From a virus, in IMG/VR virus record IMGVR_UViG_3300038701_002630, positions 1-22,124 of that record: 22,124 nucleotides of DNA. One strand, given 5' to 3'. The translations under genes were made by a program, and so were the position numbers. The notes under the pieces were generated by a model, which had not been told where the DNA came from, ran no database searches, and was given only the letters and a program-made list of their open reading frames with translations. Within the stretch, counting starts at the first letter, position 1. Every line of letters starts with the position of its first letter. This document shows positions 4,249-22,124 of the stretch, one piece after another.

Positions 4249-5334
4249 ATGCTACCATTTACTATTACACCTCGTGGCGTATCATTTATTATTGAAGGAA
4301 AGCCTCAAAATATTTTGAATAACCACGTTAATTATAAAGAAATTGTTGAAGCGATCAAATCTAATGCAATTGAATCTCTAAAAGAACTATGCGATCTTAA
4401 AAAGTTTGTCGCTATTGCGAGTGAAGGTAATGTTCTAATTGCTGATGACGAAGTAAGATTTAACAACATTAAAGTTAATGATTATTTGGCTGAACGTATT
4501 ATTTATCATTATAAGAATGATTTTCCTATTAAACCTATCTGTAATTTTACACAACGTTTAATGGAAAACCCAAATGAAGAATTACGTGAAGATCTATTTA
4601 AGTGGATGGAAAATGGTAATATGCCAATCTGTTCGAATGGTAATTTTATTGCTTATAAAGCTGTAAGACCTGATTTCACACCAGTACATAAAGGTCCATA
4701 TGGTCAGGATCAGTCAGTTGGTAAAACTGTTACTATGCCACGCGAGAAATGTGATTCTGATCGTAATTCAACATGTTCAGCTGGATTACATTTCTGTTCA
4801 TGGGAATATATTCCTATTTTCACTGATGGTTATTTTAATAGTAATCAAATTAAAATTATCATTCTTGAAATTGATCCTAAGGATGTTGTAGCAATTCCTG
4901 TTGATTACAACCTTTCTAAAGGCCGTTGCTGTAAATTTAAAGTTATTGGTACAATCGATAATGAGTCTGAGCGTGATGAAGTTGCTAAGAAAACTATCTA
5001 TGAAGACGATTTGGATGTTAATGACGCACAACGCAAAATCAAAACTGGACGTCTTTATCCTGTTGAATATCGAGAATTTCTAGATAAGAAATTGGTGACA
5101 CCTGAAAACTGGAAATTTAATGGTGCTTTATACATTTACAATGAGACTAAAACTAATTCTAAAAAAGAAGAATTAACTTTTAATCATAAAGCTACTAAGC
5201 AAATTTTTACTGCTAGTGAACTAACAAAGTTAAAAGCTTCTAAAAATCTTACATATAAAGATCTGTCTTTATTACTAAAAATTCCAAAGGGAACATTAGA
5301 AGGTTGGTTCAAAAAAATTAGGGAGAGCGCTTAA
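4249..5334 (+). CDS. rIIB: rIIB-like protein with C-terminal helix-turn-helix
   Basis: This is the partner of rIIA. The central region matches T4 rIIB closely: NFIAYKAVRPDF, VGKTVTMPR, STCSAGLHFCSWEYI and DVVAIPVDYN correspond to T4 YFYAYKVVRSNY, GKVVKMPR, QTCSRGLHVCSKSYI and DVVSIPIDYN. The N-terminal FTITPRGVSFIIEGKP stretch matches the T4 segment that follows its HTH. T4 rIIB begins with a helix-turn-helix at about residues 1-45; here the protein starts directly with the core, and a helix-turn-helix-like unit (ELTKLKASKNLTYKDLSLLL, then KIPKGTLEGWFKKI) sits at the extreme C-terminus, about residues 320-361. Length is 361 aa against 312 in T4. The SD is AAGGAAAAC. The stop overlaps the next start as TAATG. 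Confidence 0.9.
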   Translation: MLPFTITPRGVSFIIEGKPQNILNNHVNYKEIVEAIKSNAIESLKELCDLKKFVAIASEGNVLIADDEVRFNNIKVNDYLAERIIYHYKNDFPIKPICNFTQRLMENPNEELREDLFKWMENGNMPICSNGNFIAYKAVRPDFTPVHKGPYGQDQSVGKTVTMPREKCDSDRNSTCSAGLHFCSWEYIPIFTDGYFNSNQIKIIILEIDPKDVVAIPVDYNLSKGRCCKFKVIGTIDNESERDEVAKKTIYEDDLDVNDAQRKIKTGRLYPVEYREFLDKKLVTPENWKFNGALYIYNETKTNSKKEELTFNHKATKQIFTASELTKLKASKNLTYKDLSLLLKIPKGTLEGWFKKIRESA

Positions 5335-5597
5335 TGGTATTGGGTGAAGCAATTAATATCGATTTTGAAGAATTTGAAAAATATTATGATTCTGACGAAT
5401 ATGAAGTAGAAAAAAGTGAATATATTGTAGATCAGGATAGATGGCATACTCATTACGAGGCCATCTATTCAAAAGACGATAAATATTATCGTTTAAATTG
5501 GAGCCGTGGTTCTACTGAATATCAGGATGATGGTCCCGAAAATATGTTCGTAACACGAGTTGAAAGAAAAGAGAAAACAGTTTATGTCTACGAATAA
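5334..5597 (+). CDS. small acidic hypothetical protein
   Basis: The 87-aa product is very acidic in its N-terminal half (FEEFEKYYDSDEYEVEKSEY) and rich in Tyr, Asp and Glu throughout. It has no cysteine, signal or membrane segment. The pattern 'YYRLNWSRGSTEYQDDGPEN' suggests a small beta-rich fold of a type common in phage genomes, but I recognise no named family. The ATG overlaps the rIIB stop, and the SD GGGAGAG lies within the end of rIIB, so it is probably co-translated with rIIB. Its end overlaps the next gene by 14 bases. Confidence 0.65.
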   Translation: MVLGEAINIDFEEFEKYYDSDEYEVEKSEYIVDQDRWHTHYEAIYSKDDKYYRLNWSRGSTEYQDDGPENMFVTRVERKEKTVYVYE

Positions 5598-5850
5598 AAG
5601 AAATTGTATAGATTGTAGATTTTATGAAAAATCATTTCTCGGTAGCGGCAGATGTAAAGAAATTGATGGCTATATAAGCATTGAAAGAGATCCACAATTT
5701 GATTCTATTAGTAGATGTGGTTCTAAAGGACTTCTATGGGAAGAAAGAAAATCTCTTTATAAGTCTTTTAAGAAATGCTTGTTTACAATGAAACGAAGAT
5801 GTGTTATATTTTTAAAGAAGGAAATACCCAATGTTCGATTTTTTGAATAG
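5584..5850 (+). CDS. small Cys-rich putative zinc-binding protein
   Basis: The frame is also open to an ATG at 5560, but the start at 5584 (MSTNKRNCIDCRFYEKS) is preferred because it limits overlap with the upstream gene and places the CxxC motif near the N-terminus, as in similar small phage proteins. The 88 aa contain CIDCRFYE, then GRCKEID, then SRCGSK: four cysteines in a C-x2-C...C...C pattern, consistent with one zinc site. The C-terminal half is basic (KSFKKCLFTMKRRC). No function can be assigned. A strong promoter for the following gene lies inside its 3' end. Confidence 0.6.
   Translation: MSTNKRNCIDCRFYEKSFLGSGRCKEIDGYISIERDPQFDSISRCGSKGLLWEERKSLYKSFKKCLFTMKRRCVIFLKKEIPNVRFFE
5782..5810 (+). 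promoter_or_regulatory. sigma70-type early promoter, TTTACA-17-TATATT
   Basis: TTTACA at 5782-5787 (preceded by G) and TATATT at 5805-5810 are exactly 17 bases apart, the same form seen at five other places in the window. It lies in the coding end of the upstream Cys-rich gene. The predicted transcript start near 5817 leaves a short leader with SD AAGAAGGAAA before the ATG at 5831. Confidence 0.6.
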
Positions 5851-6190
5851 AAATAAAGTTGAAGAGCTTGAAGATGAAATTGTCCATCTAAACAAAGTAA
5901 TTAAAAACTTAGCTAAAGCTAGTTACGACAATTATTATACAGTAGCTAATCCAACTTTACAAGCTCAAGAACACGCCGATGCAATTAAAACAAATCTTAT
6001 GCTTGATCTTAATCCAATATTAAAAGAGCATGTTTTGAAAGAAGTAGCTAAAATCGATTGGAGAAATAGCGATAAGAAACCATCCTTATATGTAGCTGGA
6101 GCATCAGCACCAGACGAATTAAGAGTAATGAGATATCATTTTACTTTGCCTGAACTTCATTTAACCTTTGAGGTTGCAAATTATGATTAA
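5831..6190 (+). CDS. hypothetical protein with N-terminal coiled coil
   Basis: The 119-aa protein begins with a predicted amphipathic coiled coil (about residues 6-28, NKVEELEDEIVHLNKVIKNL), which suggests it forms dimers or trimers. The rest is mixed and ends in a short beta-like stretch. There is no membrane segment and no recognisable catalytic motif. The SD AAGAAGGAAA gives good support for the ATG at 5831, which overlaps the upstream gene by 20 bases. Function unknown; similar short coiled-coil proteins are common in early regions of large phages. Confidence 0.65.
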   Translation: MFDFLNRNKVEELEDEIVHLNKVIKNLAKASYDNYYTVANPTLQAQEHADAIKTNLMLDLNPILKEHVLKEVAKIDWRNSDKKPSLYVAGASAPDELRVMRYHFTLPELHLTFEVANYD

Positions 6191-6365
6191 AGTAAATGAT
6201 TGTCCATATTGCGGAGAAAAACCAAAATTTTATCCAGCACAACATAAAGATGGATGGGAATCTGTGGATTGTATTAATGACGATTGTGATATACAACCCA
6301 CAACAGGTTATATGGAATATTATGAAGCCATTAAAACGTGGAATTCGTTTAAAAAAGATCATTAA
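6183..6365 (+). CDS. Lar-like zinc-finger protein (copy 1)
   Basis: The 60-aa product starts at 6183 (MIKVNDCPYCGEKPKFY), with GAGG about 10 bases upstream; an in-frame ATG at 6168 is less likely. It has the layout of the Lar (restriction alleviation) family: CPYCG near the N-terminus, then DGWESVDCINDDC, then an Ala-x-x-x-Trp-Asn ending (EAIKTWNSF). The four cysteines probably bind zinc. In E. coli, Lar from the Rac prophage modulates type I restriction; for most phage Lar-like proteins no activity has been shown. A second, longer copy lies at 18379-18705. Confidence 0.65.
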   Translation: MIKVNDCPYCGEKPKFYPAQHKDGWESVDCINDDCDIQPTTGYMEYYEAIKTWNSFKKDH

Positions 6366-6370
6366 TAACG

Positions 6371-6390
6371 AGAATTGTTAGTTCAATTCT
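6371..6390 (+). promoter_or_regulatory. hairpin 1 upstream of nadV
   Basis: AGAATTG (6371-6377) and CAATTCT (6384-6390) form a perfect 7-bp stem with a 6-base loop. No U-tract follows, so a classical Rho-independent terminator is unlikely. It lies five bases after the stop of the Lar-like gene and abuts a TATAAATA element. Confidence 0.45.
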
Positions 6391-6397
6391 ATAAATA
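6390..6397 (+). promoter_or_regulatory. candidate T4-type late promoter TATAAATA upstream of nadV
   Basis: A perfect match to the T4 late -10 element, in a non-coding gap. The predicted start, about six bases downstream, would place hairpin 2 at the very 5' end of the RNA. The octamer also occurs by chance inside genes of this AT-rich window (for example near 9242), so confidence is moderate. Confidence 0.4.
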
Positions 6398-6401
6398 AAA
6401 G

Positions 6402-6420
6402 TAGTATAGGAGTTATACTA
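6402..6420 (+). promoter_or_regulatory. hairpin 2 in the nadV leader, loop GGAGT
   Basis: TAGTATA (6402-6408) and TATACTA (6414-6420) form a perfect 7-bp stem; in RNA it gains a G-U and an A-U pair at its base. The five-base loop is GGAGT, an SD-like sequence held away from any start codon. The same loop recurs in hairpin 3. Confidence 0.5.
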
Positions 6421-6441
6421 TTAATTAATAAGTAACACGTA

Positions 6442-6456
6442 GGAAAGGAGTTTTCC
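6442..6456 (+). promoter_or_regulatory. hairpin 3: nadV ribosome binding site presented in a GGAGT loop
   Basis: GGAAA (6442-6446) pairs with TTTCC (6452-6456) around the loop GGAGT (6447-6451). The loop is the real SD of nadV; the ATG follows at 6458, one base after the stem. An SD inside a small hairpin at the start codon is a typical place for translational control by an RNA-binding protein or an RNase. Confidence 0.5.
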
Positions 6457-6457
6457 A

Positions 6458-7855
6458 ATGTCAATTTTGACAAAAGCAGACGCATATAAATATTCTCACT
6501 TTAATATTTTCCCAAAAAACATTACAAATAACAACTCATACATCGAGTCACGTGGTATTGATGAAGAATCAAAACTACCTGCAGATGCTGAGGTGCTCTT
6601 CTTTGGTCTTCAAATTTATTTGAAGAAGTATTTAAATGAGAAAACTACAAAAGAAGAAATAGATAGAATGGCTATTCTTATGCCTCGTGCCGGTTTACCA
6701 TTCAACAAAAATACTTGGGATATCATTGTAAATGAATTTGATGGGTATCTTCCTGTAGAAATCGAAGCTATTCCTGAAGGAACTGCAATCGATCCAAGCC
6801 AAGTAATGTTTCAAGTAAGAGCAACAGATGATCGCTTCGCTGAAATCGCATCATTTATTGAAACATCTTCACTTCGAGCAATTTGGTATACAACAACTGT
6901 TGCCACACTTTCACGAGAAGTAAAGAAAATTATTAAACTTCATATGTTAAAAACATGCGATACTTTAGATGGCTTACCATTTAAATTACATGATTTTGGA
7001 GCAAGAGGCGTAAGCTCTCACGAATCTGCCGTAAATGGTGGATTAGCTCACTTGGTAAATTTCATGGGTACCGATACTGTTGAAGCCTTATTCGGTGCAA
7101 TTGATTACTATAACGTTCCATTAGAAAATCCAGTTGGGTTTAGTATTCCAGCATCTGAACATTCTACTATCACATCATGGGGTAGAGATGGCGAATTAGA
7201 TGCATATGAAAACTTCCTGGATATTTATGGTGGTGAAGGTAAAATTATCTCATGTGTAAGCGATAGCTATGATATCTATAATGCTGTGGATAATCTATGG
7301 CCTTCTCTGAAAGATAAGATCGTTGATAGTGGAACAACATTGGTTGTTCGTCCAGACTCAGGTGATCCAGTAACTGTAGTTATTAATATTCTAAAATCAT
7401 TAGAAAAATCATTTGGTTACGAAACAAACAGTAAAGGATATAAAGTACTGAATAGCGTAAGAGTTATTCAAGGGGATGGTATCGATATTGAATCACTTGA
7501 AGATATTCTTAATAACATGACAGCTATGGGTTTTTCAACTGAAAATATTGCCTTTGGTATGGGCGGAGCATTACTTCAAAAAGTTAATCGTGATACTCTT
7601 AAATTTGCTCAAAAAACCAATGCCATTGAGAAAGATGGCGAATGGATTGATGTATATAAAGATCCAGTCGGTTCAAGCTTTAAGAAGTCTAAAAAAGGAC
7701 GTCTTGCATTAATCAAAGAAAATGGTAAATTTAAAACTATTAGATTTGATGAATTGGGCGATAGAAAGAATTATCTAGAGCCAGTTTGGAGAAATGGTAA
7801 GCTTCTAAAGGATTACACATTCGATGAAGTTAGACAAAATGCGGAGGTGCTATAA
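6458..7855 (+). CDS. nadV: nicotinamide phosphoribosyltransferase (NadV/NAMPT)
   Basis: Makes nicotinamide mononucleotide (NMN) from nicotinamide and PRPP, the first step of the two-step NAD+ salvage route. The family opening is visible as KADAYKYSHFNIFP with IESRG shortly after. HDFGARGVSSHESA and AHLVNFMGTDTVEA match the human NAMPT core; the Asp in GTDT corresponds to the residue that favours nicotinamide over nicotinic acid. SIPASEHSTIT carries the catalytic histidine at H235 (human H247). Length 465 aa, near the family norm (human 491). The SD GGAG sits in a hairpin loop. The stop overlaps the nadM start (TAATG), so both salvage enzymes are made together. KVP40-type vibriophages carry the same pair. 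Confidence 0.95.
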   Translation: MSILTKADAYKYSHFNIFPKNITNNNSYIESRGIDEESKLPADAEVLFFGLQIYLKKYLNEKTTKEEIDRMAILMPRAGLPFNKNTWDIIVNEFDGYLPVEIEAIPEGTAIDPSQVMFQVRATDDRFAEIASFIETSSLRAIWYTTTVATLSREVKKIIKLHMLKTCDTLDGLPFKLHDFGARGVSSHESAVNGGLAHLVNFMGTDTVEALFGAIDYYNVPLENPVGFSIPASEHSTITSWGRDGELDAYENFLDIYGGEGKIISCVSDSYDIYNAVDNLWPSLKDKIVDSGTTLVVRPDSGDPVTVVINILKSLEKSFGYETNSKGYKVLNSVRVIQGDGIDIESLEDILNNMTAMGFSTENIAFGMGGALLQKVNRDTLKFAQKTNAIEKDGEWIDVYKDPVGSSFKKSKKGRLALIKENGKFKTIRFDELGDRKNYLEPVWRNGKLLKDYTFDEVRQNAEVL

Positions 7856-8898
7856 TGAAAAAGATCGGCGTATTTATCGGTAGATTTCAACCATTCCACT
7901 ACGGTCACCAAGCTATTGTAAAGGAAGGTCTAAAACAATTAGATGAAGTAATTATCATTCTGGGTTCAAATAAAAAGGCTCAAAATACCAGAGAGCCTTT
8001 ATCAACCGAAGAACGACAAGCAATTATTACATCGTATTTTAATGAAGAAGAACGTCCACGTATTAAATATGGATTTGTAGAAGATTACAAATACAATGAT
8101 GACAAATGGTTAAGCTCTATTTCTACAGTTGCACATAATCTTGCTTGGAAACCATGGCATAGTGATTCTGTTGAATTCTATTTGATTGGAATGAATAAGG
8201 ATTCAAGCTCATATTACGTAAATAAATTTCCTCAGTGGAAATCCTTAGTAATTGAAAATGATCCTGAGAAAGATGTGATTTCTTCTACTGATCTTAGAAA
8301 TGGTTATTATAAAAATGCCTACCATTTGCCACTCAGTACAAGCTACTTATATTTTACAAACTATATGAATGAAATTGCAGCTAAATTATTCGTAAAATAT
8401 ATGAATAAGAAAGCAAAAAATTTAATTTATGAACACGCTTATGAAAGAACCTATAAAGATAATTGGGGAATTGGTCCTCATATGACCGTTGATTCTCTTA
8501 TCACTCAGGCGGGTCATATTCTTTTAATTCAAAGAGGTGCTGAATACGGTCATGGCAAATGGGCGATGCCTGGTGGATTTATCAATCCTGATGAATTTAC
8601 TTTGGACGCATGTATTAGAGAATTAAAGGAAGAAACATGTATTAAAGTTCCTGAAAAAGTTCTTAGAGGATCTATTGTAAAAAATAAATTATATGACGAT
8701 CCTTATAGATCAAACCGAGCTAGAATTTTAACGAATGTATTTCAGTTTAAGTTAAATGATGTTGGAGATCTTCCAAAGGTTAAAGGATCTGATGATGCTC
8801 AAAATGCAAAATGGATTCCTATCTCAAAATTCTTAAAAATGAGAGAACAAATGTTCGAAGATCATTATGATATTATTTGTGATATGTTGAAATTATAG
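7855..8898 (+). CDS. nadM: bifunctional NMN adenylyltransferase / Nudix hydrolase (NadM-type)
   Basis: The N-terminal domain joins NMN and ATP to give NAD+; the C-terminal Nudix domain probably hydrolyses ADP-ribose, as in Synechocystis and KVP40 relatives. Residues 9-18 are GRFQPFHYGH, holding the HxGH motif (H15, G17, H18); ISSTDLR at 142-148 is the second nucleotidyltransferase signature. The Nudix box starts at G241 (GGFINPDE), with the metal ligands in RELKEET at 255-261. The usual Gly of REUxEExGU is Cys262, a position that is relaxed in this subfamily as I recall it. Length 347 aa, normal. The SD GGAGG lies in the end of nadV. With nadV it forms a complete nicotinamide-to-NAD+ pathway. 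Confidence 0.95.
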   Translation: MKKIGVFIGRFQPFHYGHQAIVKEGLKQLDEVIIILGSNKKAQNTREPLSTEERQAIITSYFNEEERPRIKYGFVEDYKYNDDKWLSSISTVAHNLAWKPWHSDSVEFYLIGMNKDSSSYYVNKFPQWKSLVIENDPEKDVISSTDLRNGYYKNAYHLPLSTSYLYFTNYMNEIAAKLFVKYMNKKAKNLIYEHAYERTYKDNWGIGPHMTVDSLITQAGHILLIQRGAEYGHGKWAMPGGFINPDEFTLDACIRELKEETCIKVPEKVLRGSIVKNKLYDDPYRSNRARILTNVFQFKLNDVGDLPKVKGSDDAQNAKWIPISKFLKMREQMFEDHYDIICDMLKL

Positions 8899-8927
8899 TT
8901 TACTTTTGTCTCCTTATATGATATATT
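8899..8927 (+). promoter_or_regulatory. sigma70-type early promoter, TTTACT-17-TATATT
   Basis: TTTACT at 8899-8904 and TATATT at 8922-8927 are 17 bases apart. The predicted start near 8933-8935 gives a leader of only about 14 bases with the SD AAGGAG. The -10 box lies in the loop of a long inverted repeat (8905-8946). Confidence 0.65.
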
Positions 8928-8946
8928 TTAATTATAAGGAGACAAA
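8905..8946 (+). promoter_or_regulatory. 14-bp perfect inverted repeat flanking the -10 box and burying the SD
   Basis: TTTGTCTCCTTATA (8905-8918) and TATAAGGAGACAAA (8933-8946) are perfect complements separated by 14 bases. In RNA reading through from nadM the repeat folds into a stable hairpin that hides AAGGAG, the SD of the next gene. In RNA starting at the local promoter the left arm is absent, so the SD is free. No U-tract follows, so it is not an ordinary terminator. It could also serve as an operator for a dimeric repressor centred on the -10 box. Confidence 0.7.
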
Positions 8947-8947
8947 T

Positions 8948-9127
8948 ATGATTTGTGAATTAATTGTTTTGGGTGGATTATTATTAAATCCCTGCGAAAT
9001 TAAATATGCATTTGACATTGGCAATGGTTGTAGAATAGTTTATAATCGCTATGTATATGCTGATATTGATGTGCCTTGCAAACAATTGAAAGATTCAATC
9101 AGATATGAGATACCTAACAGACAATAA
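8948..9127 (+). CDS. small hypothetical protein, possibly exported
   Basis: The start at 8948 is set by the strong SD AAGGAG at 8937-8941; in-frame ATGs further upstream lie within the promoter and are not transcribed from it. The 59-aa product begins with a short hydrophobic stretch (ELIVLGGLLLNPC), without a basic N-terminus, and has four cysteines (3, 16, 28 and 44). Export and disulfide formation are possible but the signal is poor. No family recognised. Its expression appears tightly controlled by the hairpin-promoter just upstream, which is its main point of interest. Confidence 0.6.
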   Translation: MICELIVLGGLLLNPCEIKYAFDIGNGCRIVYNRYVYADIDVPCKQLKDSIRYEIPNRQ

Positions 9128-9326
9128 ACGTCATTTAATTTGTGAGCCATATTCAATTGAAAATTTGCATAAAATGGCTCAAGATTTAAATATAAAACGA
9201 TGTTGGTATCATAGCGGTAAAAAACCACATTATGATGTGCCTATAAATAGAATAAAAGAAATTTCGTCTAAATGCGAAATAGTTTCTTCTAAAACTATTT
9301 TAAAAATTATTAAAGGTGTTAATTAA
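9105..9326 (+). CDS. DUF4031-like protein
   Basis: The 73-aa product shows the DUF4031 layout: HLICEPYSIENLHKMAQDLN ('x-L-x-x-x-A-x-x-[LI]'), then RCWYHSGKKPHYDVPINR, where the family usually has a tryptophan followed by HYDL...R. The biochemical role of the family is unknown; it is common in phages and near DNA-related genes. The start at 9105 overlaps the upstream gene by 23 bases, has only a weak SD, and is probably reached by coupled translation. The stop overlaps the next ATG (TAATG). Confidence 0.65.
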   Translation: MRYLTDNKRHLICEPYSIENLHKMAQDLNIKRCWYHSGKKPHYDVPINRIKEISSKCEIVSSKTILKIIKGVN

Positions 9327-9394
9327 TGGAAATTTATTTGGCTATTTTACTTATAGGACTTGTTATGTTTTTATGGGGTAGAGGTTTATTTTAA
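9326..9394 (+). CDS. 22-aa single-span membrane micropeptide
   Basis: MEIYLAILLIGLVMFLWGRG followed by LF and a stop: almost the entire peptide is one hydrophobic span. Start and stop both overlap neighbouring genes as TAATG, the arrangement of genuine coupled genes in this genome. Size and shape fit a membrane micropeptide. No homology can be judged at this length. Confidence 0.5.
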   Translation: MEIYLAILLIGLVMFLWGRGLF

Positions 9395-9549
9395 TGAAAA
9401 TAGGCGATAAAGTTACCGTTCCTAGTTCTGAAGTCTTTAAAGATAAGACTGGGAAAATCAAAGAGATCAATAAGCTTTTTATAAAAGTTGAGTTCTCTAA
9501 AAATAAAGTTGGAATTTATAAGAAAGACTTAGTTAATGTTTTATTTTAG
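9394..9549 (+). CDS. 51-aa KOW/SH3-like small protein
   Basis: The sequence begins MKIGDKVTVPSSEVFKDKTG and continues KIKEINKLFIKVEFSK. The pattern 'GDkVtV...g.tGkIkeI....ikVef' resembles the short beta-barrel KOW/SH3-like unit seen in many small phage and host proteins that bind RNA or protein. It is basic overall (many Lys). The ATG overlaps the stop of the micropeptide gene upstream. Too short for the usual ORF length cut-offs, but the coupled junctions on both sides support it. Confidence 0.5.
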   Translation: MKIGDKVTVPSSEVFKDKTGKIKEINKLFIKVEFSKNKVGIYKKDLVNVLF

Positions 9550-9706
9550 AAAAGAAGGCATGAATATTTATAATGGTATTAACATTTATCGCGATGATAT
9601 AAGAAGCCGTGGCGTGGTGTTTAGTTTATTTGGTTTACAATTATGGATTAGATATAGCGTTAATTTCCAAAAATGGAAAATAAATTTTAGAAACGTAATA
9701 AATTAG
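9536..9706 (+). CDS. 56-aa basic hypothetical protein
   Basis: The frame starts at ATG 9536 (MFYFRKEGMNIYNG) and overlaps the preceding gene by 14 bases. An internal ATG at 9560 is possible, but its GAAGG is too close to work well as an SD. The product is rich in aromatic, Arg and Asn residues (FSLFGLQLWIRYSVNFQKWK) and may be an amphipathic or membrane-associated peptide. No family recognised; supported mainly by filling the gap between two genes in a compact operon. Confidence 0.4.
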   Translation: MFYFRKEGMNIYNGINIYRDDIRSRGVVFSLFGLQLWIRYSVNFQKWKINFRNVIN

Positions 9707-9712
9707 GTTATT

Positions 9713-10204
9713 ATGAAAAAATTAAATTGGATAAGAGATCCGTTAATGGATAGTTTAGAAGCTAACACTGAATATGGAACATATTTTTGTGTTAGGGATT
9801 ATCTTGATGTTTCTATTCTATCTTTTAATGACGAAGAATTGATACGTTCTAGTGTAGGTTCTCACGAAAAATCCAAAATATATGCTGAAATACACTATAA
9901 TAAAATGATCGAGGAAGATACAGATATGTTTATTCATGAAGGTTCGTTAAAAGCATTTAAAAAATATAAAAAAATGCTTGAAGATAAATCAATTAAATCT
10001 CAGGAAGATTTAGAAAATCCAGTTTCACTAGAACATATTCATTTTATGTGTGATACGTGTATCAAAGCATTAACTGATAAGAAATCTGAAATGTCTGTTG
10101 ATAAATTTTCTAGATGGCTTGGATATGTTCAAGCTGTTTTAATTTATAAGAAACTTACATCTTTAGATGCAGAACGTAATAATACTAGAGAGTGGTTAAA
10201 ATAA
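9713..10204 (+). CDS. conserved phage-type hypothetical protein
   Basis: The 163-aa protein seems to have two parts. The first (about 1-75) is a variable acidic domain. The second (about 100-163) contains the phrase MSVDKFSRWLGYVQAVL followed by LTSLDAERNNTR, a pattern I associate with a helical domain found in many phage genomes ('...lnRWlGyiQgvL...t..aERd.tR'), of unknown function. The start is the ATG at 9713. The stop overlaps the start of the kinase gene (TAATG), so the two proteins may be made together. Confidence 0.6.
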   Translation: MKKLNWIRDPLMDSLEANTEYGTYFCVRDYLDVSILSFNDEELIRSSVGSHEKSKIYAEIHYNKMIEEDTDMFIHEGSLKAFKKYKKMLEDKSIKSQEDLENPVSLEHIHFMCDTCIKALTDKKSEMSVDKFSRWLGYVQAVLIYKKLTSLDAERNNTREWLK

Positions 10205-10614
10205 TGCAAACATTAATCATAGTTAGAGGTCCACCAGGATCAGGAAAATCAACATTTGTTAAGAAGCTTATAAGTGAGCTTCCAGAAGGTGAAACATCGG
10301 CTCATTTTGAAGCTGATATGTATCATTATGACAAAGATGGTAATTACAATTGGAATCCAGATAATTTGAGTAAAGCTCATAATTGGTGTTATGCTAGCGT
10401 GAGAAATGCTCTTGAACATAATGTTGATAATGTATATGTAAGTAATACATTCATTAAGCTTAGAGACATTAAGAGATATTTGGATTTATCTTCAGACGTG
10501 GTAGTTTATAGAATGTGTACTCAATTTGATAACATTCATTCAGTTCCTCCTGAAGTTGTTAAAAGAATGACAGACACATATCAACCATATGAAAAGGAGA
10601 TAGAGATAAAATGA
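10204..10614 (+). CDS. P-loop kinase-like ATPase (AAA_33 / N4BP2-like)
   Basis: The start at 10204 (MQTLIIVRGPPGSGKST) is preferred over an upstream ATG at 10192, since it overlaps the previous stop as TAATG and puts the Walker A motif (GPPGSGKST, residues 9-17) at the usual distance from the N-terminus. Further on come HFEADMYHY and VYVSNTFIK (a Walker B-like strand ending in Asn-Thr), as in the AAA_33 group that includes the kinase domain of T4 Pnkp and N4BP2-like proteins. At 136 aa it is a lone kinase domain with no phosphatase domain. The substrate may be a nucleic-acid 5' end or a small molecule; the sequence does not decide. Confidence 0.75.
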   Translation: MQTLIIVRGPPGSGKSTFVKKLISELPEGETSAHFEADMYHYDKDGNYNWNPDNLSKAHNWCYASVRNALEHNVDNVYVSNTFIKLRDIKRYLDLSSDVVVYRMCTQFDNIHSVPPEVVKRMTDTYQPYEKEIEIK

Positions 10615-10841
10615 TTACATTTATTTGTGCTTTTCTATTAGCACTTTATTTAGTAATTGGAATATATATGATTGCCGCAATTCATCTTGCGGTAATCCGT
10701 CAAAGAGATAGTGGAGTAAGAAGTGGAAATCTCAGTACTGACGTTTTAGTTACAAAATGCAAAGAAAATCCATTTGAATATTATATAAGTATGTTTATAT
10801 CAATTTTTATCTGGTTGCCACTAATGGTTATTTATCAATAA
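10611..10841 (+). CDS. two-TM membrane protein (paralogue A)
   Basis: The 76-aa product has a span at about residues 2-27 and another at about 57-74, joined by a polar loop with two charged patches. The end, ISIFIWLPLMVIYQ, nearly repeats in the next gene (IGIFIWLPVIIINW). The ATG overlaps the kinase stop (ATGA) and GGAG lies upstream. Both termini are probably on the same side of the inner membrane. No function recognised. Confidence 0.65.
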   Translation: MITFICAFLLALYLVIGIYMIAAIHLAVIRQRDSGVRSGNLSTDVLVTKCKENPFEYYISMFISIFIWLPLMVIYQ

Positions 10842-10850
10842 GGAAAAAAC

Positions 10851-11066
10851 ATGACAAGTTTAATTATAGGAATATATTTGCTAATAGGTTACATTTTTAT
10901 CTCTACTGGAGATAAAAATGTGAAAAGCTACGAAGAAACAACAGATCCAGACATTATTATGCTGCGAGATATGTTGGAAAATAAACCAGCTCAATATCAT
11001 TTGTCTTGCGCTATTGGAATTTTTATCTGGTTACCTGTTATAATTATTAATTGGATGCGTGGATGA
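10851..11066 (+). CDS. two-TM membrane protein (paralogue B)
   Basis: The 71-aa product has hydrophobic spans at about residues 2-18 and 52-68. Its C-terminal span shares FIWLP and the surrounding bases with the previous gene: 16 of 18 bases encoding IFIWLP are the same in both. This suggests a tandem duplication that has since diverged. SD AAGGAAAAA. It overlaps DexA by 4 bases (ATGA). Confidence 0.65.
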   Translation: MTSLIIGIYLLIGYIFISTGDKNVKSYEETTDPDIIMLRDMLENKPAQYHLSCAIGIFIWLPVIIINWMRG

Positions 11067-11641
11067 TTATTATTGACTTTGAAACACTTGGTAACGGCCA
11101 AGAACGAGATGATTTTATTATTGTTGATGTATCGTGGTTGCACTTTGATTTAAAACAAACATTTACATTTGATGATCTAGTATCGAAAGCTCGTCGCATT
11201 AAATTTGATATAAACGAGCAATTTGAACTGGGTTGGAGAGCTGAACATGACACTTTAGAGTGGTGGAAAAAGCAAGACAAGGAAGCTGTTAAAAATATTA
11301 AACCTTCTAGCGAAGATCAATCTCTTAGTGAATTTATAGAAAAGTTTAATGCAGATCTTAAACGCTACTCACCTAAATATCTATGGTCTAGAGGAAATGA
11401 TTTTGATCTTCCAATTCTAAAGCGAATTTATAGAACAATGGGAGACAATATTAATAATAAAATTCCATTTAATTCAGCTTCAGATGTTAGAACTGCATTG
11501 AGAGTCGCGTCTAACTTTACATTAAAATGGGACGGTTTTATCCCACCTACCGGTAAAAATGTAAATTATATCAAACACGATTCTAAACACGATATTGCTA
11601 TGGATGTATTGAGGCTTCAATATTTATTAGGAACAGATTAA
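11063..11641 (+). CDS. dexA: DexA-like 3'-5' exonuclease (DEDDh)
   Basis: Homologue of T4 DexA, an exonuclease that removes nucleotides from DNA 3' ends. Exo I is IIIDFETLG with D5 and E7 (T4 FIIDFETMG); TLEWWKKQDKEAVKNIKPS matches T4 TIEWWKNQSPEARKNIAPS; Exo II is SRGNDFDLPIL with D113/D115; Exo III is HDSKHDIAMDVL with H176 and D181, the DEDDh spacing. Length is 192 aa against 227 in T4. The start at 11063 (overlap ATGA with the previous gene) is preferred over 11051 because it begins directly with the first strand. It lies between membrane proteins and the modification-type enzymes, in the early plus-strand operon. Confidence 0.9.
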   Translation: MIIIDFETLGNGQERDDFIIVDVSWLHFDLKQTFTFDDLVSKARRIKFDINEQFELGWRAEHDTLEWWKKQDKEAVKNIKPSSEDQSLSEFIEKFNADLKRYSPKYLWSRGNDFDLPILKRIYRTMGDNINNKIPFNSASDVRTALRVASNFTLKWDGFIPPTGKNVNYIKHDSKHDIAMDVLRLQYLLGTD

Positions 11642-11643
11642 TA

Positions 11644-12411
11644 ATGTATTGGATTATACAAGATAATATTTTTAAAGAAAAGTGCTTTGATGAGTTCATT
11701 AAAACATTTGAAAGATTTGACATACAATATCAGATCGTTAAATGTGTTCCTTTTTCTCATGAAATTATTCCGCCTATAAACAAAAATTTAACTGATATTA
11801 TTGCCATAGGTTCATATGGCATGACAAATAAAATTTTAAATGATTTTGGAGAAGGAAGTTGGACTAATTCTAATTATAATTATAATGTATGGTCTAAAAA
11901 ATGGGCTGGTTACTGTTTTAATGAGGGCGAAGTTTATAATTTTAATTCTGTAGCAAAACCTTCAAATGATTTGTTTTTTATTAGACCCGTTGGAGACGAT
12001 AAAGATTTTAACGGTAAAATAATTTCATGGGATGACTTTTGCATTTGGCAAAATAACATTCTAAATTTAAAAAAGGGCAATTATACTAATCTTAGTGCCG
12101 AAACAGAAGTATTAGTTTCTGAAGTAAAACCTATTGAAGAAGAATATAGATTTGTTGTAGTAGATAAAGAACCAATCACAGCTTCAACATATGGTTCAGG
12201 AAAAATACAAAGATATGTAGGTAAAGATAATGAATTATTATATAACTTTGTAAAAGAAGTAATTGATATATGGGTCCCGTCTGAAGTTTTTTGCTTAGAT
12301 ATTGTTTTATCATGTGGAGAATATAAAGTAATGGAAATGGGTAATTTTAATTCATGTGGTCTGTATGATAATGATATTCAAAAAATAGTATTTACATTAG
12401 AAAATAGATAG
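11644..12411 (+). CDS. ATP-grasp domain protein (DUF4343-like)
   Basis: ATP-grasp enzymes join a carboxylate to an amine or thiol using ATP. This 255-aa protein shows the layout of the DUF4343-type group: a variable N-terminal domain, then FFIRPVGDDKDFNGKI (about 115-130), VSEVKPIEEEYRFVVVDKEP (about 159-178, with the Glu-Tyr-Arg that usually contacts ATP/Mg) and FCLDIVLSCGEYKVMEMGNF (about 219-238, holding the metal-binding Asp and Glu/Asn). Its substrate is unknown. It is followed after 7 bases by an FkbM methyltransferase and then a 2OG oxygenase, which suggests a shared pathway acting on a peptide or a small molecule. Confidence 0.75.
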   Translation: MYWIIQDNIFKEKCFDEFIKTFERFDIQYQIVKCVPFSHEIIPPINKNLTDIIAIGSYGMTNKILNDFGEGSWTNSNYNYNVWSKKWAGYCFNEGEVYNFNSVAKPSNDLFFIRPVGDDKDFNGKIISWDDFCIWQNNILNLKKGNYTNLSAETEVLVSEVKPIEEEYRFVVVDKEPITASTYGSGKIQRYVGKDNELLYNFVKEVIDIWVPSEVFCLDIVLSCGEYKVMEMGNFNSCGLYDNDIQKIVFTLENR

Positions 12412-12418
12412 GATATAA

Positions 12419-13069
12419 ATGAAGAAACCAGGAATAGACGGAATTAAAGATTTAGAATGGGATCCTGAAGATGAAGGCCTTTATGGATATTATGATGATA
12501 AAGATAATAATTCAGGACCAGTTGGTGATTGGTTTGCTTCACATAAATCAGTAATTGAAGATTTATCAAGTAAAAGAGGCAGGTCAGTAATTCAAGCTGG
12601 CGGCGCATTTGGAATGTACCCTCTTCTATTGAATAAATATTACGATAATGTCTATACATTTGAAGGCTCTTCTAACAATTTCAAATATTTAAGAGAAAAC
12701 CTAAAGGGCACAGACGTCAATTATTATCATAAAATTCTCGGTAATAAATATGAACTAGCAACGATAACAACACCATCTCATAAAAATAAGGGTATGAATA
12801 GAATTGGCGATTTAGATCCTAATGACTATACTCATATGATGAAGATTGATGGATATGACTTTCATAATGTTGATCTTATATGGTTAGATGTTGAAGGATA
12901 TGAATATGAAGCTATCATGGGTGCTAGAGAAACGATTGAAGCATATAAACCATTTATCGGTGTTGAAAGACCATGTCAATCTCTAATTAATTTTCTTGAA
13001 GAAAGAGAATATTCAGTTTATAAAAAATCAAAGATGGATGTATTTTTTAAATTTGATGGTGTACAATAG
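12419..13069 (+). CDS. FkbM-family SAM-dependent methyltransferase
   Basis: FkbM-type enzymes methylate hydroxyl groups, often on sugars or secondary metabolites, using S-adenosylmethionine. Motif I is VIQAGGAFGMYP (about 57-68), motif II the acidic end of strand 2 in VYTFEGSS (E82), and the family signature is DLIWLDVEGYEYEAIMGA (about 153-169, with D157, E159, G160 and E162). The 216-aa length fits a stand-alone domain. In the group I know from marine T4-like phages such enzymes are frequent but their targets are unproven. SD AGGAT. A promoter for the oxygenase gene lies across its stop codon. Confidence 0.8.
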   Translation: MKKPGIDGIKDLEWDPEDEGLYGYYDDKDNNSGPVGDWFASHKSVIEDLSSKRGRSVIQAGGAFGMYPLLLNKYYDNVYTFEGSSNNFKYLRENLKGTDVNYYHKILGNKYELATITTPSHKNKGMNRIGDLDPNDYTHMMKIDGYDFHNVDLIWLDVEGYEYEAIMGARETIEAYKPFIGVERPCQSLINFLEEREYSVYKKSKMDVFFKFDGVQ

Positions 13070-15239: not shown

Positions 15240-15253
15240 TATAGCCTTTTTTG

Positions 15254-19526: not shown

Positions 19527-19528
19527 TG

Positions 19529-19557
19529 TTTACATCTCGTTTAAATTTTGATATAAT
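19529..19557 (+). promoter_or_regulatory. sigma70-type early promoter, TTTACA-17-TATAAT
   Basis: TTTACA at 19529-19534 (preceded by G) and consensus TATAAT at 19552-19557, 17 bases apart: the closest to consensus of the set. The predicted start at about 19564 lies directly on the SD AAGGAGA. Confidence 0.7.
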
Positions 19558-19574
19558 AAAATAAAGGAGATGTA
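19531..19574 (+). promoter_or_regulatory. inverted repeat around the -10 box that would pair with the SD
   Basis: Bases 19531-19543 (TACATCTCGTTTA) and 19562-19574 (TAAAGGAGATGTA) are complementary at 12 of 13 positions, with one G-G mismatch. The right arm contains the SD of the gene at 19576. As at 8905-8946, RNA reading through from upstream would hide the SD, while RNA from the local promoter would lack the left arm. Confidence 0.6.
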
Positions 19575-19575
19575 T

Positions 19576-19854
19576 ATGAAATGTACTAAAAGAATAGAGC
19601 TTAAAATGCCAAAGGGCGAAGAGCTCGAATTGGAATTGCCGCTTGATGCTAAGATTCTTACCGTTAAGGTGTATAATTATGTTCCTACAATGTGGATTGA
19701 ATATGACAATAATGAAAAGCGAACCATGAAGAAGACCTTCTATGTTGTGGGAGATCATGCTGAATTCCCATATAATAGAACACATATCTCTACATGTGTT
19801 TGGACAGCCAACAACGGAAAAGATTATTATTTCCATGTATATATGAAGAAGTAG
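19576..19854 (+). CDS. DUF7352-like hypothetical protein
   Basis: The start at 19576 is preferred over the ATG at 19570, which overlaps the SD AAGGAG. The 92-aa product follows the layout 'k..i.mP.ga.iL.v......p.lw..vd.......r.f.v.GtG.......y..t......fv.Hvy': here KRIELKMPKGEELELELP, DAKILTVKVYNYVPTMWIEY, KTFYVVGDHAEFPYNRTHIS and YYFHVYMKK. That family is common in phages and has no known function. It is probably under the hairpin control just upstream. Confidence 0.65.
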   Translation: MKCTKRIELKMPKGEELELELPLDAKILTVKVYNYVPTMWIEYDNNEKRTMKKTFYVVGDHAEFPYNRTHISTCVWTANNGKDYYFHVYMKK

Positions 19855-21229: not shown

Positions 21230-21682
21230 TTAAAATACACCCAATTCATCTTCTGTAAAGATTTTGAATTCCCATCCCTTATTGACGCATGCTTTCTTAG
21301 CTGCTTCCCATTTGGCTGAATTAACTCCCCAGGTCAGCACCTCGTTTAGGAATGTTTTCTCTCTTTGATTCTTTCTTCTAACGGGTGCCATGACTTGCTT
21401 TTTGGGCTTTACTTCTATAAGCCATTTCTTTAAATTCCCATCCTTATCCTTAAACTCTACGTAAAAGTCCACAAAATATCTATGATAACGATTATCAACA
21501 GGAGATTTATAGGGTATTACAACTTCCTCTGATGACCACTGGAGCACGTCGGGGTGTTTGTCCAGTTTAGACATAAGTTTTAGTTCCCACCCGCTTCTAT
21601 AAACTATGGATCCTCTTTTAACATTCCCTTTATATTTTTCTGGGTTTATGGGCTTAAAGAACCCTTGTTTATACTTAGCCAT
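21230..21682 (-). CDS. 4: head completion protein, T4 gp4-like
   Basis: T4 gp4 (formerly gp50/gp65 group) is needed to finish DNA-filled heads before tails attach. The match is close along the whole length: YKQGFFKPINPEKYKG, YRSGWELKLMSKLDKHPDV, PYKSPVDNRYHRYFVDFYV, IEVKPKKQ and GWEFKIFTEDELG align with T4 YKQGLFKPSNPKKYVG, YRSSWELKLMMYLDKHPDV, PYRSPVDGKVHRYFPDFKV, IEVKPKKQ and GWEFMIFTEDHLG. Length 150 aa, as in T4. The start at 21682 is chosen over an in-frame ATG at 21709 because of the T4 alignment and the SD AAGGAAA. E33, D72 and the E90-V-K92 pair form a PD-(D/E)xK nuclease-like layout known for this family. Confidence 0.95.
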   Translation of the reverse strand: MAKYKQGFFKPINPEKYKGNVKRGSIVYRSGWELKLMSKLDKHPDVLQWSSEEVVIPYKSPVDNRYHRYFVDFYVEFKDKDGNLKKWLIEVKPKKQVMAPVRRKNQREKTFLNEVLTWGVNSAKWEAAKKACVNKGWEFKIFTEDELGVF

Positions 21683-21691
21683 GAATTTCCT

Positions 21692-21699
21692 TATAAATA
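21692..21699 (+). promoter_or_regulatory. T4-type late promoter TATAAATA for the tail tube-fold gene
   Basis: Perfect TATAAATA on the plus strand, 36 bases before the ATG at 21735. The predicted start near 21705 leaves a 30-base leader with AAAGG at 21726-21729. Confidence 0.6.
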
Positions 21700-21717
21700 A
21701 TAAAAACAATACAATAA

Positions 21718-21725
21718 TATTTATA
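21718..21725 (-). promoter_or_regulatory. T4-type late promoter TATAAATA for gp4
   Basis: Perfect TATAAATA on the minus strand (TATTTATA as written). The predicted start near 21711 lies 30 bases before the gp4 ATG. Together with the plus-strand element at 21692-21699 it forms an interleaved pair: each promoter lies in the other's leader. Confidence 0.6.
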
Positions 21726-21734
21726 AAGGTTTAA

Positions 21735-22124
21735 ATGGCAAGAATTACAGATATGATTGCTACTATTGATAAATTAGGTGGGTTAACTACTTTAAATAGA
21801 TACGTAGTACAGATTACTCCTCCCAGCAGTCTATTATCTAAATCACGAGACATACCATTCCTATGCGATACAGTAAATTCACCGGGTATTCAATTCACTA
21901 CCGAGAATATTAAGCATAAAGGATATGGCCTATCAGAAAAAAGACCCGTATCTACTGATATGGATGACATTACAGCTACATTCTTTATTGATAACTCTAA
22001 TGTTATACAGGGTTTCTTTCAGCAATGGTTCCAGATGGTTACATCATTTGATCCTAACCATAGCAGAACATCAATTAATGGGATGAGTTTAGAATCATAT
22101 AATTATCCGGATGAATATTACGGA
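21735..22124 (+). CDS. tail tube-fold protein (gp54 tube initiator or gp19-like), 3' end missing
   Basis: The window ends inside the gene after 130 codons. The visible part (MARITDMIATIDKLGGLTTL, NRYVVQITPPSSLLS, PFLCDTVNSPGIQFTT, DDITATFFIDNSNVIQGFFQ then QWFQMVTSFDP) has the pattern of the T4 tube family: 'NrF.V.i..p......l.f.c..vnlPg......' followed by 'd.i..tf.id.n..v...F..W...v.'. Tube subunit gp19, tube initiator gp54 and hub-proximal proteins share this fold, and the missing C-terminus would decide between them; 130 residues without an end makes gp54 or an unusual gp19 equally possible. It has a perfect late promoter. Confidence 0.65.
   Translation, partial: MARITDMIATIDKLGGLTTLNRYVVQITPPSSLLSKSRDIPFLCDTVNSPGIQFTTENIKHKGYGLSEKRPVSTDMDDITATFFIDNSNVIQGFFQQWFQMVTSFDPNHSRTSINGMSLESYNYPDEYYG

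Follow-up and report, generated by a model that had tools for sequence, protein, structure and literature searches.

The virus record studied here is 22,124 bases long and was analysed as one window covering the whole record; it is probably a fragment of the genome of an uncultured T4-like phage. Matches in PHROGs were obtained for rIIA, rIIB, an ATP-dependent DNA ligase, nadV, nadM/Nudix and a baseplate wedge protein, and the closest match of the tail-tube-cap protein was in Rhizobium phage RHph_I1_18 (37 %). The stop codon of nadM ends at 8898 with a G that it shares with a promoter, whose GTTTAC element starts there; the promoter leads into an ORF of 59 amino acids (Table 1). This ORF is presumably a real gene. 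Its protein had no relatives in viral_contigs and no family in PHROGs or Pfam, and against phages it gave a single weak match, in a microvirus (E 0.04); the leader DNA, compared with phages, gave only short, weak matches. The scans gave no relative for the 92-aa protein or the rIIB-like protein of the window either. The nadM search gave eight loci, three of which (L001-L003) contain nearly the whole gene; just downstream of nadM these three have neither an early promoter nor a repeat covering a Shine-Dalgarno sequence (SD). In the nadV leader (6390-6457) the late promoter motif TATAAATA is followed by the hairpin AGTATAGGAGTTATACT and then by an SD in the loop of GGAAAGGAGTTTTCC.

Table 1 Features of the two putative read-through locks and the genes around them in the window
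Feature	Position	Strand	Remarks
nadV	6458..7855	+	Upstream of nadM, same strand
nadM/Nudix gene	7855..8898	+	Putative source of read-through RNA for the 8898 lock
T4-type early promoter	8898..8927	+	GTTTAC 8898-8903, extended -10 TGATATATT 8919-8927; predicted RNA start 8934
Left arm (anti-SD)	8905..8918	+	Inside the promoter spacer; repeat search, fold
Right arm	8933..8946	+	Contains SD AAGGAG 8936-8941; repeat search, fold
59-aa ORF behind the 8898 lock	8948..9127	+	ATG at 8948
Early promoter of the second lock	19528..19557	+	GTTTACA...TGATATAAT; left arm TACATCTC 19531-19538
Right arm of the second lock, GAGATGTA	19567..19574	+	Overlaps the SD of the 19576 gene
DUF7352 gene (92 aa) following the second lock	19576..19854	+	

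The promoter ahead of the 59-aa ORF was described in the original prediction as sigma70-like, TTTACT-17-TATATT, lying inside an inverted repeat. The sequence is indeed present within the repeat, at 8899-8927 and with TG ahead of the -10 hexamer, but this match alone is worth little, since a generic sigma70 scan of positions 5000-13000 found 42 sites compared to 46.3 in shuffled sequences, i.e. no excess. The assignment of its type had to be corrected: the promoter reads GTTTAC-N15-TGA-TATATT and is of the T4 early type. When GTTTAC was required together with a TG-extended -10 matching in at least 5 of 6 positions, six sites were found in the window; 100 dinucleotide shuffles gave 0.03 on average and never more than 2. 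Five of the sites are on the plus strand (5781, 8898, 15253, 19528 and 20506) and match GTTTAC-N15-TGn-TATAwT fully or closely. In all five, 18 nt separate GTTTAC from the -10 hexamer and an ORF starts 48-58 nt further on, which is the arrangement of T4-type early promoters; the minus-strand match at 804 has a spacing of 16 nt. GTTTAC at -36 to -31 is described as the T4 early -35 element (PMC1524935), and T4 early promoters as a combination of UP, -35, TGn and -10 elements (PMC2988021). The 8898 promoter shares with these the position of GTTTAC, the TGn, the -10 and the spacing, but its spacer carries an anti-SD sequence, a role not mentioned for the spacer in the accessible parts of these papers. 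With T4 spacing its RNA should start at 8934, the second base of the right arm of the repeat, and such an RNA would lack the whole left arm. A promoter of this type would be expected to be used by the host polymerase as soon as infection begins. Similar GTTTAC promoters were also matched in contigs seemingly derived from non-T4 phages (L081, L084, L098 and L143, the last with a shorter spacing), and therefore the promoter type may be wider than the T4-like phages. On the minus strand, the sequence TTCACA-17-TATAAT (8959-8931) agrees with the sigma70 consensus in 11/12 positions. It overlaps the right arm, and its transcript would be antisense to the 3' part of the region, at the end of nadM.

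The 14-bp perfect inverted repeat with its right arm on the SD region, as originally proposed, was confirmed. The two arms are complementary at 14/14 positions and separated by a loop of 14 nt, and the SD within the right arm lies six bases 5' of the ATG. Among the best 25 of the 37 pairs found when the window was searched for inverted copies at most 60 nt apart, this was the longest perfect repeat. The hairpin begins 7 nt past the nadM stop, and the terminator scan listed no intrinsic terminator at 8905-8946. A perfect 13-bp inverted repeat with a 5-nt loop is found at 10891-10921, within the ORF 10851-11066.

Computed folds agreed with the proposal that the SD is hidden in read-through RNA and not in local RNA. 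The cost of opening GGAG was 15.3 kcal/mol in the read-through RNA and 1.4 kcal/mol in the local RNA (12.6 and 0.4 kcal/mol, respectively, for the SD with a shorter flank), and in RNA starting from 8933 the SD was unpaired. The folding energy of the read-through RNA (8880-8975) was −23.7 kcal/mol with a z-score of −4.5, and none of 200 shuffles was as stable. No stem of at least 13 bp with the predicted native leader arose in 6000 shuffles of the left side. The SD-opening cost was reached by none of 60 shuffles in one test and by 2 of 300 in another, in which the left flank was shorter; for this lock the energy measure is less extreme than the stem length.

We estimate a probability of about 75 % that a cis-acting read-through lock is built into the T4-type early promoter at 8898. 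In such a lock the stretch from -35 to -10 would be complementary to the SD of the very gene that the promoter drives. RNA started at the predicted position 8934 would begin past the left arm and leave the SD open, so that the 59-aa protein could be made in the immediate-early period. RNA coming from nadV-nadM would carry both arms, fold into the 14-bp hairpin with the SD buried in it and would be expected to give no 59-aa product. Read-through presumably occurs at this site, the hairpin would be expected to block ribosomes in vivo, and the purpose of the lock may be to confine the 59-aa product to early infection. The suggestion that the switch separates transcripts rather than infection stages was not upheld, since with an inner promoter of the T4 early type it would separate the stage as well. 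For the window itself this conclusion rests on architecture and on analogy, since no relatives of the 59-aa protein were found and the arrangement is absent downstream of nadM in the three relatives that contain nearly the whole gene.

The window contains a second copy of the design ahead of the DUF7352 gene, in which TACATCTC lies over the -35 element and the spacer, the loop contains TGATATAAT and GAGATGTA falls on the SD. Its 8-bp stem was not reproduced in any of 6000 shuffles. The opening cost was 4.3 to 7.5 kcal/mol, depending on the flank and the SD bases, compared to 0.0-0.1 kcal/mol natively, and was reached by 2/60 and 0/300 shuffles in two tests. This copy at 19528-19576 is weaker than the 8898 lock. 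A ribosome parked at the upstream stop would lower the cost at the SD from 4.4 to 0.7 kcal/mol and open the hairpin, and the 19528 lock may therefore be coupled to upstream translation. The early promoters of the genes at 5831 and 20564 showed no significant lock (25/300 and 79/300 shuffles, respectively), and the one at 15253 was left out of the scoring, the scan having found no SD there. Elsewhere in the window, at 21678-21739, late promoters (TATAAATA) are located on both strands inside one imperfect palindrome, the SD of each strand overlapping the TATAAATA of the other, likewise in T4 genes 4/53 and 26/51.

The combination of early promoter and complementary SD was also found in other viral contigs. 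Early promoters followed by AGGAG were collected from viral_contigs blind to their left side (at least 120 stretches). The stem test was applied to promoters in L012-L131 with 60 permutations of the left sides; among 158 deduplicated early promoters from the matches listed, perfect SD stems of at least 8 bp occurred four times (permutation mean 0.55, 0/60) and stems of at least 12 bp twice (L089 with 18 bp and L032 with 12 bp; 0.02 expected). A complete scan for CTCCTT within the promoter gave 72 stretches, which were reduced to 15 deduplicated promoters with an SD and a start, the window included and the near-identical leaders of L133, L138, L142, L176 and L197 counted once. In these promoters, chosen for CTCCTT in the spacer, stems of at least 12 bp were found in four cases (L089, L194, the window and the L133 family) compared to 0.00 expected (0/2000). 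L169 has a 10-bp stem, TACATCTCCT/AGGAGATGTA, which resembles the 19528 lock, and a 50-aa ORF. When 11 such loci, including both window locks, were refolded, the read-through cost was at least 7.5 kcal/mol in eight; the stems of L144, L013 and L096 (IMG/VR) had almost no opening cost. When scored by folding energy, the metagenome sample hardly differed from chance, with 7 of 147 promoters (a test that omits L009-L011) at 1/60 shuffles or less and approximately five expected. The metagenome signal is a minority of promoters with long stems. By BLAST, the leaders of L133 and L089 matched named phages only over short stretches. The near-identical locked leader of the L133 family (L133 4287, L138 1434, L142 7116, L176 8583 and L197 7296) is located 30-40 nt past an ORF which by eye resembles thyX and precedes proteins with differing N-termini; it is perhaps a moving regulatory cassette.

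In the genome of phage T4, SD stems of at least 7 bp were found at 4 of 32 early promoters compared to 0.49 expected (2/3000 permutations). By energy, 9 of 34 early promoters were at a shuffle p of approximately 1 % or less, with 0.45 expected: those at the starts of regB, nrdC.8, motB.2, modB, 30.8, denV, e.8 and mrh.2, and one at a start inside the annotated ndd.4. When SD-bearing gene starts, defined uniformly, were compared between groups, 7 of 27 were locked behind early promoters (regB, nrdC.8, motB.2, modB, denV, alt.-3 and 30.8), 2 of 16 behind late promoters (I-TevII and 51) and 1 of 100 behind neither promoter type (segB). I-TevII and segB are known T4 locks (PMC2988022), and their recovery served as a positive control. 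The comparison is incomplete, as e, I-TevI and 26, which are also known locks, fell just short of the cut (2-3/150).

Orthologues of two of these T4 genes were compared. Of 79 denV loci, 38 (L325-L362) were analysed with a widened -35 pattern, which admitted L345, L350, L352 and L358; L353 dropped out with no promoter and L349 with no SD. Leaders of equal length and at least 80 % identity were merged, which gave 24, with the similar L325 and L326, unequal in length, both retained. The read-through cost was at least 6 kcal/mol in 20 of the 24, and the native cost at most 2.9 kcal/mol in all. With their own left sides the leaders reached a total of 213, compared to 119.5 with swapped left sides (0/20,000 permutations). 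Only 8 of the 24 beat every single swap, because related leaders share arms. In the other 41 denV loci a GTTGAC promoter was found in L363 and L375 only, both without a lock. The regB set, T4 and 25 orthologue loci, was merged to 13 leaders, of which 10 had a read-through cost of at least 8.9 kcal/mol; own arms gave 135.7 and swapped arms 69.8 (0/20,000 permutations). Five regB loci (L414, L422-L424 and L428) had no promoter by the pattern, and in L414 CTCCTCTTG/CAAGAGGAG are visible by eye behind a variant -35. A strong lock was absent from 4/24 denV and 3/13 regB leaders. The permutations overstate independence, since the leaders share ancestry and the merging was partial. The change in sequence and place of the arms is a stronger argument: in some phages the left arm of denV is in the spacer (TCTCCTGTAG, TTCCTCCAAG, CTCCGTTTG) and in others around the -10 to the start (TAGTGTTCTC, GATGTCTTCC, ATGTCCTCCTA), and the right arm is on the SD whichever position the left arm takes. 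The core of the original mechanism is supported by the computed folds, by recurrence and by these re-matched arms, with the promoter type as the part to be revised.

The same leaders bear on the alternative named from the outset, a DNA-level operator, in which the palindrome would be a protein site over the early promoter and the overlap with the SD incidental. The 8905/8933 repeat, perfect, without G-U and spanning promoter DNA, is what would be expected of a DNA palindrome, so that an operator is conceivable for this particular repeat. For the class it is disfavoured: in denV and regB the position of the right arm on the SD is retained, while the left arms are unrelated and occur at two places, and G-U pairs, which would be mismatches in DNA, make up 21 of the 358 pairs in 26 denV loci. 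Judged on these sequence comparisons, the RNA lock is the better supported of the two, because it is the pairing with the SD that is kept, not a sequence or a place, and we regard the operator as improbable.

It is similarly improbable that the hairpin mainly serves the upstream message, as a guard of the nadM 3' end, an RNase III site or a shield of GGAG from a RegB-like nuclease. The short distance to the nadM stop and the GGAG in the SD would suit such a role, and RegB is described to cut GGAG in T4 early leaders (PMC3014915). However, GGAG is absent from the right arms of the L133 and L032 locks, a hairpin with a guarding role would not have to cover the SD or keep pairing with it, the excess in T4 is at starts behind promoters (early compared to neither type, above), and no intrinsic terminator was listed at the hairpin. 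Translational coupling, in which ribosomes ending the upstream gene open the hairpin and the read-through product needs upstream translation, is a little less probable still. Co-directional ORFs end, with their stop codons, at most 2 nt from the promoter at 8898, at 19528 and in L089, and the parked ribosome would nearly abolish the cost at 19528; under the same assumption, with a ribosome at the nadM stop masking bases up to 8909, 7.9 kcal/mol is still needed to open GGAG at 8898. A functionless repeat produced by chance or template switching before a non-gene ORF, which the lack of relatives of the 59-aa ORF and the perfect repeat at 10891-10921 might suggest, is very unlikely given 0/6000 shuffles and the recurrence of the promoter-SD design with different arms in the window and in other phages.

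Locks with a promoter within the hairpin are described for T4 e, soc, 49, I-TevI/II/III and segB and for Aeh1 mobE: upstream-initiated RNA buries the SD in a helix, and RNA of the inner promoter lacks the 5' strand (PMC3014915, PMC2988022). The SD-hiding hairpins are presented there as a late-gene device, and all genes under this control are late according to PMC2988022. As in these locks, the promoter region at 8898 encodes the 5' strand of the SD helix, and upstream-initiated RNA is computed to sequester the SD at the cost given above. RNA of the 8898 promoter would lack that strand if it starts at the predicted position 8934. In the T4 locks, by these descriptions, the inner promoter is late (middle for some endonucleases) and early or middle RNA is silenced, whereas at 8898 the inner promoter is of the early type and the RNA predicted to be silenced is that entering from upstream. 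The late motif TATAAATA is absent from 8898-8948. The 8898 lock would work like the T4 late-type family but is not classed as a member of it.

In the fold-back of IS10/Tn10, read-through RNA folds over the transposase start and RNA of the inner promoter does not. The 8898 lock would be alike in sparing the inner-promoter RNA and differs from this system, which is located at a transposon end; the analogy does not imply kinship. The available part of one paper on insertion sequences (PMC8450116) treats antisense RNA and 5'-UTR structure, not fold-back protection against read-through. No description of an early-promoter version of the lock was found in the literature searched, which covered the older T4 papers thinly, and an earlier remark on single genes may exist.

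Phage T4 is the textbook case of timed gene expression. It seems rather likely that early-promoter read-through locks are a general feature of T4-like phages and provide a level of temporal control not described so far, by which protein is made only from immediate-early transcripts and is silenced on RNA entering from upstream. On this reading about a quarter of the scored T4 early genes, including denV, regB, modB and motB.2, would probably carry the antisense of their own SD. On balance we also favour the view that the early lock is a mirror image of the switch of genes e, soc and I-TevI, re-made with unrelated arms and in two promoter places. The model predicts from sequence which early genes are silent on RNA entering from upstream, and it is directly testable in T4 at denV and regB. 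If it is true, the promoter itself provides many early genes with a second timer, a translational one, which would help to explain how early protein synthesis ends while the polymerase still traverses these genes.
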